NCBI GenBank assembly: GCA_900316205.1
Contig: ONBX01000005.1
Location: 20,042 to 84,041 of the forward strand
DNA length: 64,000 nt
Direction of reading: 5' to 3'
DNA from: an uncultured Eubacteriales bacterium
Lineage (GTDB): Bacteria; Bacillota; Clostridia; Oscillospirales; Oscillospiraceae
Shown: piece by piece, positions 16,592-64,000 of the stretch
How the letters are laid out: the number at the start of each line of letters is the position of its first letter
Position numbering within the stretch: position 1 is the first letter of the stretch
Translations under genes and position numbers: made by a program
The notes under the pieces: generated by a model
What the model was told of the DNA's origin: nothing
What the model saw: the letters and a program-made list of their open reading frames with translations, nothing else
Databases searched by the model: none

Positions 16592-16873
16592 ATGGCCAAG
16601 GAAGAAATGCTGCAGGTGCCGGCGCTGCCCCACGGCCTGCGCCTGGAGGGCAGGGAAAAGCTCAGCATCACCGGGGTCCAGGACGTATCCGGCTTCGATG
16701 AGGGCACTGTTCTGCTGGAGACCGGCCTGGGAGAGCTCTGCATCCGGGGGGAGGGCCTGCATATCGAACGGATCGACCTGAACACCGGGGCCTTGGAGCT
16801 GCACGGCAGGATCCGGGAGCTGAGCTATGAGGAACCAGCCCGGGGCGGCCTGCTGTCCCGCCTCTTTTCCTGA
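16592..16873 (+). CDS. yabP: Sporulation protein YabP
   Basis: 93-residue spore-coat/cortex morphogenesis protein of the YabP/YqfC family: N-terminal strand-rich LEGREKLSITGVQDVSGFDEGTV, followed by ETGLGELCIRGEGLHIERIDLNTG, which is the family core. In Bacillus it is made in the mother cell under sigma-E and works with YabQ. Here it is the first gene of yabP-yabQ-divIC-yabR, the conserved order of this cluster in endospore formers. GGGGGTGAT lies before the ATG. A typical sigma-A promoter is not seen. Confidence 0.9.
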   Translation: MAKEEMLQVPALPHGLRLEGREKLSITGVQDVSGFDEGTVLLETGLGELCIRGEGLHIERIDLNTGALELHGRIRELSYEEPARGGLLSRLFS

Positions 16874-16874
16874 G

Positions 16875-17273
16875 ATGGGGATCCGTCCCTCTGCCCAGGC
16901 CCTGGAGCTGCTGGAGGCGCTGCTGCTGGGCGTGGGCCTTGGCCTGGGCTACGACCTGCTCCGTCCGCCCCGGCGCAGGAGCGGGAGGCTGGGCGGGAGC
17001 CTGCTGGATCTGCTTTTCGCGCTGCTTGCCGGAGCGGCGGCCTTCCTCTCTGCCATGAACAGCTCAGGAGGGCGAACAGGCCTGTGGGAGCTCAGCGCCA
17101 CACTGCTGGGCTTTCTGCTTTATCTGTATGCGCTGAGCCCGGCGGTACTGCCGCTGCTGGAGGGCTGGTGTCGCGTGATGTTCAACACCATGCGATTATT
17201 TAAAAAAATTGAAAAAAATCTCTGGAAATCTGCAAAAAAAACTTTCCAAACCAGAAAGAATGGATTATTATGA
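16875..17273 (+). CDS. yabQ: Spore cortex biosynthesis protein YabQ
   Basis: 132-residue membrane protein with three to four helices (about 14-28, 44-62, 75-98), beginning one base after the yabP stop, so translation is coupled. The helix ALLLGVGLGLGYDLLRPPRR and the basic C-terminal tail (KKIEKNLWKSAKKTFQ) are typical of YabQ, which localises to the outer forespore membrane and is required for cortex formation. An upstream frame from 16827 overlaps yabP and is not used. Confidence 0.88.
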   Translation: MGIRPSAQALELLEALLLGVGLGLGYDLLRPPRRRSGRLGGSLLDLLFALLAGAAAFLSAMNSSGGRTGLWELSATLLGFLLYLYALSPAVLPLLEGWCRVMFNTMRLFKKIEKNLWKSAKKTFQTRKNGLL

Positions 17274-17320
17274 AACGGTAGGTTCGGCCTTCGGACCGCC
17301 GTAAAAGGAGGAACGGAAGC

Positions 17321-17644
17321 ATGCCGAGCCGCAGGGGGATCGTTCGGATCGTCATTACCCTGCTGTTGGTCTATTCGCTGCTGTGCTTTGCCCGGGCGGG
17401 CAGGACACTTGCGGAAATGGAGCGCACAGCCGCCCGACTGGAAGGGGAAAGGGAACTGCTGGAGCAGGAGCACGCGGAATGGGAGCTGCGTCTGCTGCAG
17501 CGGGACAACCCCGAACAGGTGGAGGCGCTGGCCCGGCGGGAGCTGGGCATGGTGATGCCGGGAGAGATCGTATTTCTATTTACGCAAGCGGAAGAAGCCA
17601 AGTCGGCACAGACAGAGAGGGACCCTTTATGCCATTGGAAGTAG
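17321..17644 (+). CDS. divIC: Septum formation initiator DivIC/FtsB-like
   Basis: 107-residue bitopic division protein: short basic cytoplasmic start (MPSRRGIVR), one membrane helix (about 8-26), then an extracytoplasmic coiled coil (LAEMERTAARLEGERELLEQEHAEWE) and the conserved ARRELGMVMPGEIVF end. Partners are FtsL and DivIB/FtsQ in the divisome. GGAGG lies 8 bases upstream. The gene order after yabQ confirms the assignment. Its 3' end overlaps the next gene by 16 bp. Confidence 0.88.
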   Translation: MPSRRGIVRIVITLLLVYSLLCFARAGRTLAEMERTAARLEGERELLEQEHAEWELRLLQRDNPEQVEALARRELGMVMPGEIVFLFTQAEEAKSAQTERDPLCHWK

Positions 17645-58989: not shown

Positions 58990-59358
58990 TTGTATCTGAC
59001 AAAAAACGAACTGGAGATCATGGACGTTCTGTGGGAACAGAAGCGTCCCCTCTCCCGGGGAGAACTTCTCTCGCTCCCCGAAAACAAAACCTGGATGGAC
59101 AGCTCCATCCACATCCTCCTCAACAGTCTTCTTCGGAAGGGCGCGATCCGGGAGGCCGGTTATGCCAAGTGCGGCAAGACCAGCGGCCGGGTTTATGAGG
59201 CTGCGCTCAGCTGCGCGGAGTATTATATCACCACGCTGAGCTCCACCAAGGTACAGCCCACCCTGCCTCAGCTGCTGAAGGCCTATCTGGCGGCGGTCCC
59301 GCTGGAGGAAGAGCAGAGAGAAGAGGCGCTGACACTTCTGCAGAAGAGCAAGGACTGA
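58990..59358 (+). CDS. BlaI/MecI-like winged-helix regulator
   Basis: 122 residues, TTG start preceded by GGGAGG. YLTKNELEIMDVLWEQKRPLSRGELLSL and SSIHILLNSLLRKGAIREAGY match the BlaI/MecI/CopY winged-helix. The C-terminal helix is YLAAVPLEEEQREEALTLLQ. No M56 protease partner is adjacent. It lies between the DUF1858 gene and the dehydratase operon and, by position, could regulate the latter, whose promoter carries a small dyad. It is shorter in the DNA-binding N-terminus than the copy at 41515. Confidence 0.85.
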   Translation: MYLTKNELEIMDVLWEQKRPLSRGELLSLPENKTWMDSSIHILLNSLLRKGAIREAGYAKCGKTSGRVYEAALSCAEYYITTLSSTKVQPTLPQLLKAYLAAVPLEEEQREEALTLLQKSKD

Positions 59359-59367
59359 AAAAAACAG

Positions 59368-59415
59368 ACAGCGAAAGATCCCCCGGGCGTTTGTGCCCGG
59401 GGGATCTTTCGCTGT
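59368..59415 (+). terminator. Terminator after the BlaI-like gene
   Basis: Very strong hairpin: ACAGCGAAAGATCCCCCGGG with its complement through GCTGT, loop CGTTTGTG; no downstream T run. Confidence 0.75.
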
Positions 59416-59564
59416 CCGGGGGAGCGGGAAGAGAAAATTGGACGCGAAAAGAAGCCTTGTCTAAACAAAGGAAAAAGACAAAATCGAGCCTGCCAAAAAT
59501 CCGGCGTCATTTTTTTGCAACTTGCACCAAAATTCCGCAAACGGACTTTTTCCGGGCGATTTTG

Positions 59565-59605
59565 TTGCATAATGATCCGCACTGTGATAAAATACTGACA
59601 AGTAT
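59565..59605 (+). promoter_or_regulatory. Promoter and small dyad of the CooC-dehydratase operon
   Basis: TTGCAT (59565-59570), 17 bp, TAAAAT (59588-59593). ATACT-GACA-AGTAT (59592-59605) is a perfect dyad across the -10/+1, a candidate operator. Confidence 0.65.
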
Positions 59606-59664
59606 GCATAGTGGGATCATTCTGTTCTTTTATGCAAAACTGCACTATCCAAGGGGGGACGTAT

Positions 59665-60429
59665 ATGGAGAATAAAGCCAAGATCATTACGGTCGCCGGA
59701 AAGGGCGGCGTCGGAAAGACGTCGATCTGCGCGTGCATCGTGAGGCTGCTTGCCGAGCAATACCCCGACAAGAAGATCCTCGCCATCGACGCGGACCCTG
59801 CCGTCGGCCTGTCGGTTGCTCTTGGCGTGGACGTGAAGCTGACGCTGGATGATATCCGGATGAGCATCGTGGACAGCGTGGAAAACGGAGAGACCCGGGA
59901 GGCCCTGGAGCTTCTCAGCGAGGCCCGCTTCCGTATTTTTGACGCGCTGGTGGAGATGCCCGGTTTTGCTTTCCTGGCCATCGGACGGCCGGAGAGCTCC
60001 GGATGCTACTGCAAGGTCAATTCCTATCTGAAGGAAGTCATCGGCATCCTGGCCAACAGCTTTGACTATGTGGTCATTGACGGCGAGGCCGGGATCGAAC
60101 AGATCCAGCGACGCGTGATGGAGAAGGTCACCCACCTGCTGCTGATCACCGATCAGAGCAAGAAGGGCGGCCAGGTCATCACCACCATCAAGGGTGTGGC
60201 GGACGATCTGATCTCTTATGAGCGGATCGGCGCCATCATCAACCGGGTCACCAATCCTGAGTTAGTGCCGCTCATGCAGGTGCCCGGTGTGGAGATCCTC
60301 ACCGCGATCCCCGCGGACAGCGCTTTTGCGGCAAACGACATCAAGGGCAAGAGCGTTATGGAACTGCCCGCGGATTCCTCCATGCTCAAGGGAGTGCAGG
60401 AAGCGCTCCGGAAAATAGAAATTCTATGA
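59665..60429 (+). CDS. CooC-type ATPase (metal-cluster maturation family)
   Basis: 254-residue SIMIBI/MinD-type ATPase. The deviant Walker A GKGGVGKTS is at 12-20, AIDADPAVG at 40-48 (signature and Mg site), and a CxC pair (C114, C116 in SSGCYCKVN) is like the metal-binding CxC of CooC1, the nickel ATPase that loads CO dehydrogenase. YVVIDGEAGIEQIQRRV supplies switch II. It is the first gene of an operon with two 2-hydroxyacyl-CoA dehydratase-like proteins and an activase. No CO dehydrogenase, hydrogenase or nitrogenase gene is near. GGGGGGAC precedes the ATG. Confidence 0.88.
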   Translation: MENKAKIITVAGKGGVGKTSICACIVRLLAEQYPDKKILAIDADPAVGLSVALGVDVKLTLDDIRMSIVDSVENGETREALELLSEARFRIFDALVEMPGFAFLAIGRPESSGCYCKVNSYLKEVIGILANSFDYVVIDGEAGIEQIQRRVMEKVTHLLLITDQSKKGGQVITTIKGVADDLISYERIGAIINRVTNPELVPLMQVPGVEILTAIPADSAFAANDIKGKSVMELPADSSMLKGVQEALRKIEIL

Positions 60430-60445
60430 AGAAGAGGTGTAACAT

Positions 60446-61642
60446 TTGAAAGATCTTAAGCATCTGATCTACTTCGAACGTCTGCTTGAGAACGCCGACA
60501 ATGAGCTCGTGGAAAAGGCCAAGGCCGACGGCGGCGTCTGCCTGGGCTATACCTGCTTCCACATCCCCGAGGTGCTGCTCAATGTGGACAACTGCTTCTC
60601 CACCAGACTGCGCGCACCCAACACCGGCTCCATCGATATCGCCACCTACTACATGTCCAACTACACCTGCGAGTTCGCCCGCGCCCTGCTGGAGCGCGCC
60701 ATCGAGGGCGGCTACCAGTTCCTGGACGCGCTGATCGGTGTGGACGCCTGCTCGATGATGAACCGCTCCATGGAGCACTTCGAGATCCTGCAGGTCAATG
60801 ACAAGCCCAATTTCTTTGTCACCCACACCGACATGCCCTTCAAGATCACCGACTACACCATCAAGGCCTATGTGCAGCAGATGCAGGCCCACGTGCTGGA
60901 CCGCCTGCATGAGGTCTTCGGCGCCGATACCTCCGACGCCGCCATCCGCAAGGCCGTCGCCGAGCACAACGAGGTGTGCAGGATCATCTCCGAGATCCGC
61001 GAGATGCGCAAGGCAGAAAATCCCGTCATCACCGGCTATGAGTTCCACGTGCTGAACCTGGTGACCTATGTCTGCCCCAAGGCCCTGATCCTGCCCTACC
61101 TGCGGGAGACTCTGGAGGAGCTCAAGACCCGCGAGCCCGACGCCAAGAGCCCCTTCCGCGCCCGCGTTGCCATCGTCGGCTCCGAGATCGACGACCCCAG
61201 CCTCACCAAGCTCATCGAGGGCTGCGGCGCCCTGGTGGTTTCCGACCGTTACTGCTTCGGCTCCACCCCCGGCCGCGAGGTCATTGAGCTCAACGACGAG
61301 GAGGACGCCCTGACCCAGATCTGCCGCCACTACATGGAAGTCTCCGAGTGTGCCCGCTACATCTCCGATGAGAAGGTGCTGCAGCGCCGCGAGACCGCCG
61401 ACCGCCTGGCCAAGGAATTCAACGCCGAGGGCATCATCTACGAGCAGATGAAGTACTGCGATTACTGGGGCTTCGAGCGCGCCCTGGTCAGCCATATCAT
61501 GCACGATGAATACGGCTGGCCCGTCCTCTCCATCGACCGTCTGTACAACAACGGCAACTCCGGTCAGCTGCGCACCCGCGTGCAGGCTTTCGTGGAGTCT
61601 CTGGAGATCAAGCGCATTCATAAAGAGGAGGGTAAAGCATAA
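60446..61642 (+). CDS. 2-hydroxyacyl-CoA dehydratase / benzoyl-CoA reductase-like subunit (HgdB/BcrC-type)
   Basis: 398 residues in the [4Fe-4S] dehydratase/benzoyl-CoA reductase superfamily. Family blocks are GVCLGYTCFHIPEVLLNVDNC (C32, C37, C50), TYYMSNYTCEFARALLERA (C75), LIGVDACSMMNRSMEHF (C102) and RVAIVGSEIDDPSLTKLIEGCGALVV (about 243-268). Conserved cysteines ligate the cluster. TTG start at 60446, 16 bp after the CooC-like gene, with AGAGGTG upstream. In known systems the two subunits with the activase drive ketyl-radical dehydration or ring reduction using ATP; double-cubane cluster proteins also look like this. Substrate unidentified. Confidence 0.88.
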   Translation: MKDLKHLIYFERLLENADNELVEKAKADGGVCLGYTCFHIPEVLLNVDNCFSTRLRAPNTGSIDIATYYMSNYTCEFARALLERAIEGGYQFLDALIGVDACSMMNRSMEHFEILQVNDKPNFFVTHTDMPFKITDYTIKAYVQQMQAHVLDRLHEVFGADTSDAAIRKAVAEHNEVCRIISEIREMRKAENPVITGYEFHVLNLVTYVCPKALILPYLRETLEELKTREPDAKSPFRARVAIVGSEIDDPSLTKLIEGCGALVVSDRYCFGSTPGREVIELNDEEDALTQICRHYMEVSECARYISDEKVLQRRETADRLAKEFNAEGIIYEQMKYCDYWGFERALVSHIMHDEYGWPVLSIDRLYNNGNSGQLRTRVQAFVESLEIKRIHKEEGKA

Positions 61643-63432
61643 TGGCAAAGGTTCAATATCCCAACCCTAAATTCTGGAAAGCCAAAGACAACATCAACTG
61701 GAAAAAACAGGGCGAAAACCTGATGGAGGTCGTGGGCATCTTCGGCGACATGCTGAAGGAGACCGACTGGAAGGCCTTCGGCAAGAAGTGCGTGGAGGAC
61801 TGCAAGGCCAACGTCGAGCGCGTCAAGGGCGAGTACAAGGACTTCATGGCACTGGACAGCGCCGAGAAGTGGGACCGCGTGGTAAACGGCGAGCGCAGCC
61901 TGGGCCGCCTCTACCGCAAGGGCGCCATGGCCACCGTCCGCCGCGAGTGGCGCGGCGTGAAGGACACCGCCTATGACTTCTATGAGTGGGCCAAGATGTG
62001 GGGCATGCTCCTCATGACCTTCTCCAAGGACCTGATCCCCGCCATGAACAGCGCGCTGTGGTATCGCTGGATGATCTCCTACTTCTGCTGCCACGGCTTT
62101 ATGGACAAGAACATCCTGGGTCTGCGCGGCTCCAACCTGCGCATGAGCCATGAGGTCACCTACCAGATCTTCCGCTACGTGGCGGAGAACCTGGTCTTCC
62201 TCTCCAAGGCCGACCGGAAGAACGGCAACAGCGAAGAGCTCAACAAGATGCTCTTCACCTTCGACGAAATGACCATGGGCCAGATCGCCGCCGGCTTCCC
62301 CGACCTGCTCGCCATCCCGCACCAGCTGCTTCCCATGTTCCTGGTCTCTGAGATCGACCAGCTGGTCTGCATCCCCTACATTGACGCCGTTGAGAGCTAC
62401 GGCCTGCCCTCCGACACCTGCCCGGTGCCTTCTTCCGAGTGCGGCGCCCTGGTCATCAACGCTCTGCCCGACATGGGCTCTCTGTTCATCTCCAGCTCCA
62501 TGCCCTGCGACGGCTCCACCATGGCTTCCTCCTACTTTGCCCGCCGCTTCCCCAACACCCCCGTGTTCCACCTCTGCTTCCCCGTGCGTTACCTGGACGA
62601 TGAGAACACCGTGCAGTATGCCGCCGAGGACATCAAGGCCTGCATCAAGGCCATTGAGGACGCCACCGGCGCCAAGTGGAATTGGGACGCCTACTTCACC
62701 GCCATGAAGCGCTTCAACCAGGAGACCGACCTGGAGCTGCAGAAGTGGGAGATCAACAAGTCCGCCTATCCTCAGTTCATCGGACCGAGCTACGAGCTCT
62801 TCCGCAAGTGGAACTACGAGATGGACGGCGGCATCGATCCCCGCGTCCTGCCCTCCATGGAGAAGGTCAACAAGATGCTCCTGAAGGCCTACGAGAACCG
62901 CGAGACCGCCTGGCCCGAGCGCAAGATGCGCTACCGCGCCATCGTGTGGTCCTGCCCGGCCCACTACTATGCCAACTTCTCCAACTGGCTGGCCAACTGC
63001 TGGGGCATCAACGTCCTGGTGGAGATGGAGTCTCTGAACTTCACCAAGCATCTGGAGACCGAGGACAAGGAAGAGGCGCTGCGTGATCTGGCCCGCCTGT
63101 ACGAGCGTATGGTCATGCGCCGTCACACCAACGGCGGTTACCAGAACGTGGTGGACGAGTGCTGGCGCCAGGTGGAAGCCTGGAACGCCCCGCTGGTCAT
63201 CATGTACCAGAACGTGGCCTGCAAGAACATGGCCACCGTGCAGGGCATCCTGGACGAGCAGGGACGTCAGCGCGGCTACGACCTGATCTGGGTCGAGCAC
63301 GACCTGATGGACCCCCGCACCGTCTCCCGCCGTACCATGCGCGACAAGGTCAACGAGTACATGCGCACCGTCAAGCGTGCCGAGCCCGTTGACCCGTCCC
63401 TGGTGGAGTTCGAGGACGAAGTCTGCATGTAA
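61642..63432 (+). CDS. Large 2-hydroxyacyl-CoA dehydratase-family subunit with N-terminal extension
   Basis: 596 residues, longer than typical partners (about 380-480) because of roughly 180 extra N-terminal residues that are helical and charged. The conserved part carries DTCPVPSSECGALV (C260, C267), SSSMPCDGSTMASSYFARRFPNTPVFHL (C289), VWSCPAHYY and VACKNMATVQGI. Cys-rich motifs match dehydratase alpha-like subunits that hold a second [4Fe-4S] cluster. The ATG overlaps the previous stop (TAATG), and GAGGAGGG lies upstream. Co-translated with the smaller subunit. Confidence 0.85.
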   Translation: MAKVQYPNPKFWKAKDNINWKKQGENLMEVVGIFGDMLKETDWKAFGKKCVEDCKANVERVKGEYKDFMALDSAEKWDRVVNGERSLGRLYRKGAMATVRREWRGVKDTAYDFYEWAKMWGMLLMTFSKDLIPAMNSALWYRWMISYFCCHGFMDKNILGLRGSNLRMSHEVTYQIFRYVAENLVFLSKADRKNGNSEELNKMLFTFDEMTMGQIAAGFPDLLAIPHQLLPMFLVSEIDQLVCIPYIDAVESYGLPSDTCPVPSSECGALVINALPDMGSLFISSSMPCDGSTMASSYFARRFPNTPVFHLCFPVRYLDDENTVQYAAEDIKACIKAIEDATGAKWNWDAYFTAMKRFNQETDLELQKWEINKSAYPQFIGPSYELFRKWNYEMDGGIDPRVLPSMEKVNKMLLKAYENRETAWPERKMRYRAIVWSCPAHYYANFSNWLANCWGINVLVEMESLNFTKHLETEDKEEALRDLARLYERMVMRRHTNGGYQNVVDECWRQVEAWNAPLVIMYQNVACKNMATVQGILDEQGRQRGYDLIWVEHDLMDPRTVSRRTMRDKVNEYMRTVKRAEPVDPSLVEFEDEVCM

Positions 63433-63436
63433 CGTC

Positions 63437-63553
63437 AGAAGAAGCCTGCTCCATTCCGCTTCCGCGGTTTTCGTAAGAGCCGCGAAAGCTCCATATCCGC
63501 AGGCTCCTTCTTCCTTAGCCAAACCGAACCCACTCCGTTGGGCTTCGGTTTGG
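63437..63553 (+). other. Intercistronic double hairpin before the activase gene
   Basis: GAAGAAGCCTGC (63438-63449) pairs with GCAGGCTCCTTCTTC (63499-63513), enclosing an inner GCTTCCGCGG/CCGCGAAAGC stem. CCAAACCGAA (63519-63528) pairs with TTCGGTTTGG (63544-63553). Placed between the large subunit stop and the activase start; could set relative expression through processing, partial termination or RNA stability. Confidence 0.55.
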
Positions 63554-63616
63554 TAATAACAAAGATGCCGCGCTGCGGCGATTGTAATTCAAATAATACG
63601 AGGAGAGAGTATCAAC

Positions 63617-64000
63617 ATGAAATATTTCGGCGGTTGTGACGTAGGATCCACCTACACCAAGGCAGTCATTCTGGACGAGAACGGCAAGATGGTAGCCGAT
63701 ACCACCATCAAGAGCAAGATCAATTCCGAGCAGAGCGCCATTGCGGCGATGGACGAGGTTCTGAGAAAGGTGGGCCTGACGAGCAGCAAGGAGCTGGCGT
63801 ACCTGATCGGTACGGGCTACGGGCGCAACAAGGTGCCCTTTGCAGACGAGAACATCTCCGAGATCAGCTGCCACGCCATGGGCGTGCATGTGACCGATCC
63901 CAGCGTGAAGGCCATCATCGACATCGGCGGCCAGGACGTCAAGGGCATCAGCATCGACACGGACGGCACGGTGAAGAACTTTGCCATGAACGACAAGTGC
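63617..64000 (+). CDS. 2-hydroxyacyl-CoA dehydratase activase (partial)
   Basis: First 128 codons of an ASKHA-family ATPase; the gene runs off the right edge. FGGCDVGSTYTKAVILDENG is the phosphate-1 motif (usual G-I-D-x-G-S-T); GTGYGRNKVPFAD, IIDIGGQDVKGI (phosphate-2) and KNFAMNDKC (first cluster Cys at the edge) match the dimeric [4Fe-4S] activators that pass an electron to the dehydratase with ATP hydrolysis. AGGAGAGAG precedes the ATG. It completes the minimal dehydratase set with the two subunits upstream. Confidence 0.9.
   Translation, partial: MKYFGGCDVGSTYTKAVILDENGKMVADTTIKSKINSEQSAIAAMDEVLRKVGLTSSKELAYLIGTGYGRNKVPFADENISEISCHAMGVHVTDPSVKAIIDIGGQDVKGISIDTDGTVKNFAMNDKC

Follow-up and report, generated by a model that had tools for sequence, protein, structure and literature searches.

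The stretch of DNA analysed here (the window) comprises 64,000 nucleotides of contig ONBX01000005.1 from an uncultured Eubacteriales bacterium, and the locus in question is a block of four genes at its 3' end which encode a CooC-type P-loop ATPase, a small and a large subunit of the HGD-D (dehydratase-fold) family and an activase (Table 1). All four genes were found in tight succession where the original prediction had placed them, with an overlap of one base between the small- and large-subunit genes. The last base of the window is the end of its contig (C50) and lies inside the activase gene. Contig C37 of the same genome ends in another activase stretch which is 96% identical over 384 nucleotides to that of C50, so the break is most simply explained as an assembly break at a repeat. 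Behind the activase, relatives carry a gene for a membrane peptide of approximately 55 residues and then one for a protein of 245 residues, here called X245. In the window's genome both are found at the beginning of contig C54, behind the last 99 bases of an activase, and on the basis of this gene order C54 probably continues C50. The first three genes showed purifying selection in comparison with homologue L034, with a nonsynonymous divergence (dN) of 0.06-0.08 and a synonymous divergence (dS) of 0.5-0.9. A conserved operon of six genes, of which the window has the first four, would encode an ATP-driven reductase of very low potential from the benzoyl-coenzyme A (CoA) reductase/2-hydroxyacyl-CoA dehydratase superfamily; together with the mechanism proposed below, this explanation is given slightly better than even confidence.

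Table 1. Features of the locus in the window and of its probable continuation on contig C54.
Feature	Location	Strand	Remarks
CooC/AcsF-type P-loop ATPase	59665..60429	+	254 aa; CxC metal motif C114, C116; proposed metal insertase; best PDB match 3kje CooC
Small HGD-D subunit	60446..61642	+	Pfam HGD-D E 1.7e-88; double-cubane ligands C37, C75, C102, C270, C302, C338
Large HGD-D subunit	61642..63432	+	Pfam HGD-D E 2.9e-34; cluster ligands C260, C289, C527 and invariant C453; helical N-terminal extension
BadF/HgdC-type activase, first 128 codons only	63617..64000	+	Pfam BcrAD_BadFG
Last 99 bases of an activase	contig C54, L100:1-99		window's genome
Membrane peptide, 55 aa	contig C54, L100:354-521		window's genome
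X245, 245 residues, acetyl-CoA synthase-derived	contig C54, L100:525-1265		window's genome

Conservation of the block was followed in 80 named loci, which are the best 80 of at least 527 confirmed matches and hence close relatives, in 245 genomes of the same class as the window, and in a second sample of 397 genomes of another family from which 28 loci were newly fetched. The ATPase gene was found upstream of the small-subunit gene in 75 of the 80 named loci and four others were cut by contig ends (75/76 uncut), while in the other family it was present in 24 of the 28 newly fetched loci with the other four cut (24/24 uncut). X245 lay directly behind the activase in 27 of the 31 named loci which had a complete activase and at least 1 kb of sequence behind it. 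Among the 245 genomes, X245 was matched at E 2e-42 or better in five, and three weaker matches comprised a chance match and two true acetyl-CoA synthase (ACS) genes. Members of the large-subunit family (E up to 1e-20) were present in exactly these five genomes; four of them carried a block-type ATPase (55-100% identity) and in the fifth the contig stops before it. In the other family, 29 of the 397 genomes had X245. The gene order differed among loci (for example with X245 in front or with the activase ahead of the pair) with a constant gene set, and the retention of the set through reordering argues for a joint function. As an exception, locus L246 had cooC, activase, transmembrane peptide and X245 with no pair adjoining, and L257 was a divergent variant. 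Overall, the co-occurrence across genomes by which the original prediction was to gain was found, and homologues of the pair retained the ATPase. In plasmid records, no relatives of the large subunit were found and CooC proteins had one full-length match only, in an Acetoanaerobium record.

The small subunit was matched best among the NCBIfam models by the double-cubane reductase (134.5 bits, cut-off 350) and then by BzdN (85 bits, cut-off 453.8), both below cut-off, and it scored 75.7 bits with the HadC model against a cut-off of 700 bits. Its best PDB match was BzdN. According to excerpts of PMC11971306, the BzdNO structure has C36/73/100/263/293/327 as [8Fe-9S] ligands and C95/128/380 at the catalytic cluster. 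The six double-cubane positions were all cysteine in 97 of 97 full-length members of the small-subunit family. In one alignment, the BzdN and DCCP segments read CCCCCC like the family, and four HadC-like sequences (two identical) read PCCACC at the same positions; the HadC and HadB identity of the pair in the control operon L199 is based on its NCBIfam scores, 444 and 517 bits, which are best matches below cut-off. In the small-subunit tree, from which three of 12 extra HGD-D loci without a usable open reading frame were left out, the small subunits of the block formed one clade of their own (support 100/99) outside HadC and not squarely within a known dehydratase clade, and DCCP formed a separate clade (96/89). 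For the large subunit, C260, C289 and C527, which align with the catalytic-cluster ligands C95, C128 and C380 of BzdO, were present together with C453 in 99 of 99 sequences. A Foldseek search with the large-subunit model (mean pLDDT 84) gave BzdO first (E 1.5e-13), followed by the HadBC alpha subunit, MbdO and DCCP. Ahead of its first cluster cysteine, the large subunit has 259 residues, compared to 94 in a protein like HadB and 111 in one like BzdO, which shows that the predicted N-terminal extension is real with approximately 150-165 extra residues instead of 180. Judged from its sequence, the pair is a benzoyl-CoA-reductase/DCCP-like ATP-driven reductase and not an ordinary dehydratase, and it was assigned to the double-cubane reductase type because all six [8Fe-9S] cysteines are kept in the small subunit. 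The earlier suggestion of a double-cubane-cluster-like reductase was strengthened by the six cysteines and by BzdO being the best fold match of the large subunit.

The ATPase showed CooC as its best PDB match (3kje, E 1e-16), a deviant Walker A motif (GKGGVGKT) and the CxC motif that had been predicted; GCxC and Walker A were present in 50 of 50 homologues. It is the only CooC of the window's genome. A tree of 46 sequences contained carbon monoxide dehydrogenase (CODH)-linked CooC1 (n = 14), AcsF (n = 10; support 89/72), the block type (n = 21; 100/99) and one further CooC. The block ATPases fell outside the AcsF and CooC1 clades and beside AcsF under midpoint rooting, for which the program warned of long branches. 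All ten AcsF-type genes were located among AcsD, RACo, AcsC or ACS genes, and AcsF reportedly inserts nickel into ACS. The further CooC (genome G184) joined the block type (98/93) and belongs to an operon (L152) of CooC, a Bzd-type pair, a BzdQ activase over cut-off, a second activase, CoA-ligase and CoA-transferase. The small subunit of this operon was the sister of that of the block (95/95), X245 was absent from the operon, and the single X245 of G184 is located elsewhere, which suggests that the ATPase travels with the double-cubane pair and that X245 is the looser part. The L152 operon adjoins acyl-CoA ligase, CoA-transferase and thiolase genes, and G184 also has CODH/ACS. In agreement with the earlier remark that no CODH is nearby, no prismane/CODH protein was found in the window's 96%-complete genome. 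A leftover CODH maturase was rejected on this ground and because CODH-linked CooC1 is a different clade. For the CooC1-type matches L193, L194 and L196, no CODH was found in the available sequence around them. The two cysteines of C. hydrogenoformans CooC-1 bind nickel, which the R. rubrum protein hardly does (PMC6006190, in excerpt). Overall, a nickel client for the ATPase is likely.

The genes around the block were consistent with nickel in part of the lineages. Four copies of CooT were scanned with Pfam PF10133 and all were over cut-off. Of 113 block loci, 15 had CooT with an adjacent His-rich gene next to the block and five more had the His-rich gene alone; of 20 control loci, two had CooT (both of them CODH/ACS clusters) and none had the His-rich gene, counts which lean towards the block since both profiles were built from the same block loci. 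The Pfam CooT search is independent of these profiles and showed CooT in 12 of 33 block-positive and one of 28 block-negative genomes (p 0.0018). Eight of these 12 CooT genes were less than 1 kb from the block or a neighbouring pair gene, two were on the same contig at approximately 4 kb and at 14.6 kb, one was approximately 6 kb from CODH/ACS and one was on another contig. HypA was also commoner in block-positive genomes (27/33) than in block-negative ones (7/28). Beside the block, HypA came with a GltD-like Fe-S flavoprotein in seven of eight loci, and in the eighth (L077) HypA was approximately 4 kb away. HypA was thus rejected as proof of nickel in the block enzyme. In loci L238, L242, L243, L245, L250, L252, L253, L235 and L248, this GltD-like oxidoreductase, with approximately 950 residues and iron-sulfur (Fe-S)/flavin adenine dinucleotide character, lay directly behind the block and was mostly followed by HypA. 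It is likened to IsrA by description and neighbours, not by sequence, and 73% of 988 IsrA homologues are near HypA in the part of PMC10134865 available. The GltD-like flavoprotein may be the real client of HypA, and it is possibly a second, IsrA-like nickel enzyme or an electron donor.

The NCBIfam ACS models matched X245 of L094 at E 1e-8 to 3e-6 and did not match the copies of L025 and L082. Pfam CdhC was over cut-off in three of five X245 copies scanned, the X245 profile matched ACS domain 2 in the PDB, and with the AlphaFold model (mean pLDDT 83) all 23 of 23 Foldseek matches at E <= 1e-3 were ACS. A cysteine tail of CX2CX5C was present in 51 of 51 copies, while the ACS of L113 has CX2CX8CX9C. 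The tail ends after the third A-cluster ligand and the CGC nickel motif was found in none of the 51 copies, so the A-cluster site is incomplete. From these matches and the predicted model, X245 is a fragment of an ACS and not an ACS. Selenocysteine in X245 was rejected since the TGA of G223 is an ordinary stop. For the membrane peptide, the best 19-residue hydropathy was 2.5 in the window's genome and 2.1-3.2 in four others.

No conserved neighbour names the substrate, and none was recognised as an aromatic-degradation gene. An OYE/BaiCD-like flavoenzyme gene was found upstream (divergent) or downstream in ten of the 80 named loci; it was also found in seven of 31 other loci and adjoined the block in six of these. 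A gene for HtpG (Hsp90) was near the block in 17 of the 80 named loci, including L080, L082, L084, L086, L087 and L094, and in several loci it lay between pair B and the ATPase; HtpG perhaps assists the folding of the complex. Upstream of the pair in the divergent locus L257 is a gene for a family III CoA-transferase. A CoA ester as substrate is our guess, because those members of the family whose function is known use CoA esters and L257 has this upstream gene, and small-molecule substrates as with DCCP are possible by analogy.

A promoter ahead of the ATPase gene had also been predicted, but a consensus scan of 59300-59760 gave no plus-strand sigma-70 match. A BlaI/CopY-type repressor gene (window 58990-59358) ends approximately 300 bases upstream of the ATPase gene, with a similar gene upstream in ten of the 80 named loci, and might regulate the operon. 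Activase copies within a genome were nearly identical (ends of C50 and C37; L070:11830-12618 and 16617-17405) and the pairs preceding them had diverged to approximately 30-50%. This pattern resembles gene conversion and may be the reason for the many contig ends within the activase gene. The window's genome has three further small/large pairs of the same family at L010:646-3478 (C37), L011:8216-10976 (C61) and L012:9848-12642 (C58), and behind each extra large gene lies a separate membrane peptide gene. No activase was found near the pairs on C61 and C58. The extra pairs may share the single ATPase in trans.

The reading that we narrowly favour is a membrane-tethered, ATP-driven double-cubane reductase which needs CooC-type metal insertion, probably of nickel, and of which we infer the metal and the substrate. 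The activase would spend ATP on driving electrons into the small subunit, to a double-cubane [8Fe-9S] cluster at the six cysteines observed there. These electrons would feed an open-site Fe-S cluster at the ligands observed in the large subunit, where the substrate, probably a CoA ester, would be converted. The AcsF-related CooC ATPase would load a heterometal, most likely nickel, with the assistance of CooT and the His-rich protein in some lineages. The membrane peptide would tether the complex, as suggested by its computed hydropathy, and X245 would act in most lineages as a partner Fe-S or CoA-handling subunit, as suggested by its homology. Several observations weigh against this reading. 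The ATPase is absent at locus L085, where a phage-type integrase is upstream instead, and three of the four pairs in the window's genome have no CooC alongside. X245 was not found behind the activase in L037, L067, L071 and L097 (4/31), profile search included, although L067 and L097 retained the membrane peptide. The Pfam search found no CooT in the window's genome, and HypA near the block sits with a separate flavoprotein. The CooC-reductase operon beyond the block is known from one genome (G184), and not every CooC is a tight nickel binder (PMC6006190, in the portion available). Finally, BzdNO gains its double cubane in E. coli from a bzdNO plasmid, as far as the accessible text of PMC11971306 goes, which indicates that the cluster itself needs no CooC.

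Alternatively, the ATPase might handle no nickel and help to build or insert Fe-S clusters, above all [8Fe-9S], somewhat as NifH does for nitrogenase clusters. The ATPase tracks the double-cubane pair, also in the G184 Bzd-type operon without X245, and a nickel site is not readable from sequence alone, as such a role would allow. However, BzdNO obtains its double cubane in E. coli, nickel is suggested by the CooT and His-rich genes that adjoin the block in 15 of 113 loci, and the nickel insertase AcsF forms the nearest of the known clades; this role is considered unlikely. The pair and activase could also be a device that activates another nickel protein at the expense of ATP, like the MCR activation complex, and the protein activated would be X245 or an unlinked one. 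In methanogens, proteins with complex Fe-S clusters are known to supply a nickel enzyme with electrons in an ATP-driven manner (PMC12176620, in excerpt) and X245 is ACS-derived, but X245 has no CGC nickel site and is absent from the related G184 operon, and the large subunit retains a substrate-type cluster site, which makes such a device improbable.

An ordinary 2-hydroxyacyl-CoA dehydratase with a passenger ATPase would share the fold and the activase type with the pair, and the CoA-transferase gene of L257 would suit it. It is nevertheless disfavoured as very improbable, and was dropped on the cysteine pattern (six cysteines versus PCCACC in the four HadC-like sequences, two of them identical), the model scores (75.7 bits on the HadC model, cut-off 700) and the clade; in addition, the HadIBC-like control operon L199 has no CooC gene and the ATPase is kept in the 75/76 and 24/24 uncut loci. 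The block might otherwise be a nickel-iron-sulfur machine for carbonyl/acyl-CoA chemistry without CODH, in which the double-cubane pair would give low-potential electrons, a nickel-modified cluster (in the large subunit at the three cysteines and C453, or in X245) would handle the carbonyl or acyl group and X245 would pass it to CoA. The absence of X245 behind the activase in four of 31 named loci lowered its odds, and we regard it as highly doubtful. If true, a step for which CODH/ACS is thought to be required would have a second solution, and the machine would be a candidate for acetogenic Clostridia that lack CODH/ACS, such as that in PMC7000372.

The proposed reductase with CooC-type metal insertion belongs to a real conserved system of which no description was found in the open-access literature and whose anatomy is well supported; its metal, its substrate and the role of X245 are what we infer. 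No paper joining 2-hydroxyacyl-CoA dehydratase, CooC and activase was found in the open-access literature (subscription papers and preprints lay outside the search), and an open-access paper with DCCP and CooC has the two as separate genes in its accessible part. Since a CooC-type helper normally loads nickel into carbon-monoxide enzymes, the block hints at a nickel enzyme type not recognised before. Its occurrence across gut Clostridia suggests a nickel enzyme, the first in the benzoyl-CoA reductase/dehydratase superfamily, or else the first dedicated maturase of that superfamily, because the pair is tied to an AcsF-related insertase, in part to CooT and usually to an ACS piece. A reuse of acetyl-CoA synthase parts beyond the Wood-Ljungdahl pathway is suggested as well.

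Among known systems, the Bzd class I benzoyl-CoA reductase (BzdNO with BzdPQ; PDB 8s02) has the same two HGD-D subunits, small-subunit double-cubane cysteines, three catalytic-cluster cysteines in the large subunit and an ATP-driven activase. It differs in being made in E. coli from bzdNO, while the block adds the AcsF-like ATPase, the ACS-derived protein, the membrane peptide, the N-terminal extension and the invariant C453, and its small subunit scored far under the BzdN cut-off. DCCP with DCCP-R (PDB 6eno, 7yyl) shares the six ligand cysteines and the activase and is the best NCBIfam match of the small subunit. However, DCCP is homodimeric and in a separate clade, and the small subunit of the block remained below its cut-off. 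(R)-2-hydroxyisocaproyl-CoA dehydratase (HadBC/HadI; PDB 3o3m) has the same fold, two subunits and activase but differs in the PCCACC of the HadC-like small subunits, and no CooC was present in the HadIBC-like operon compared. The nickel-insertion ATPases AcsF and CooC share the deviant Walker A and CxC with the block ATPase, with AcsF as the nearest clade, whereas no CODH was found in the window's genome and the block ATPases form their own clade tied to a reductase pair. Finally, acetyl-CoA synthase (AcsB/CdhC) shares domain 2 with X245, including a cysteine tail where the A-cluster begins, while X245 has CX2CX5C in place of CX2CX8CX9C, no CGC and no catalytic domain.

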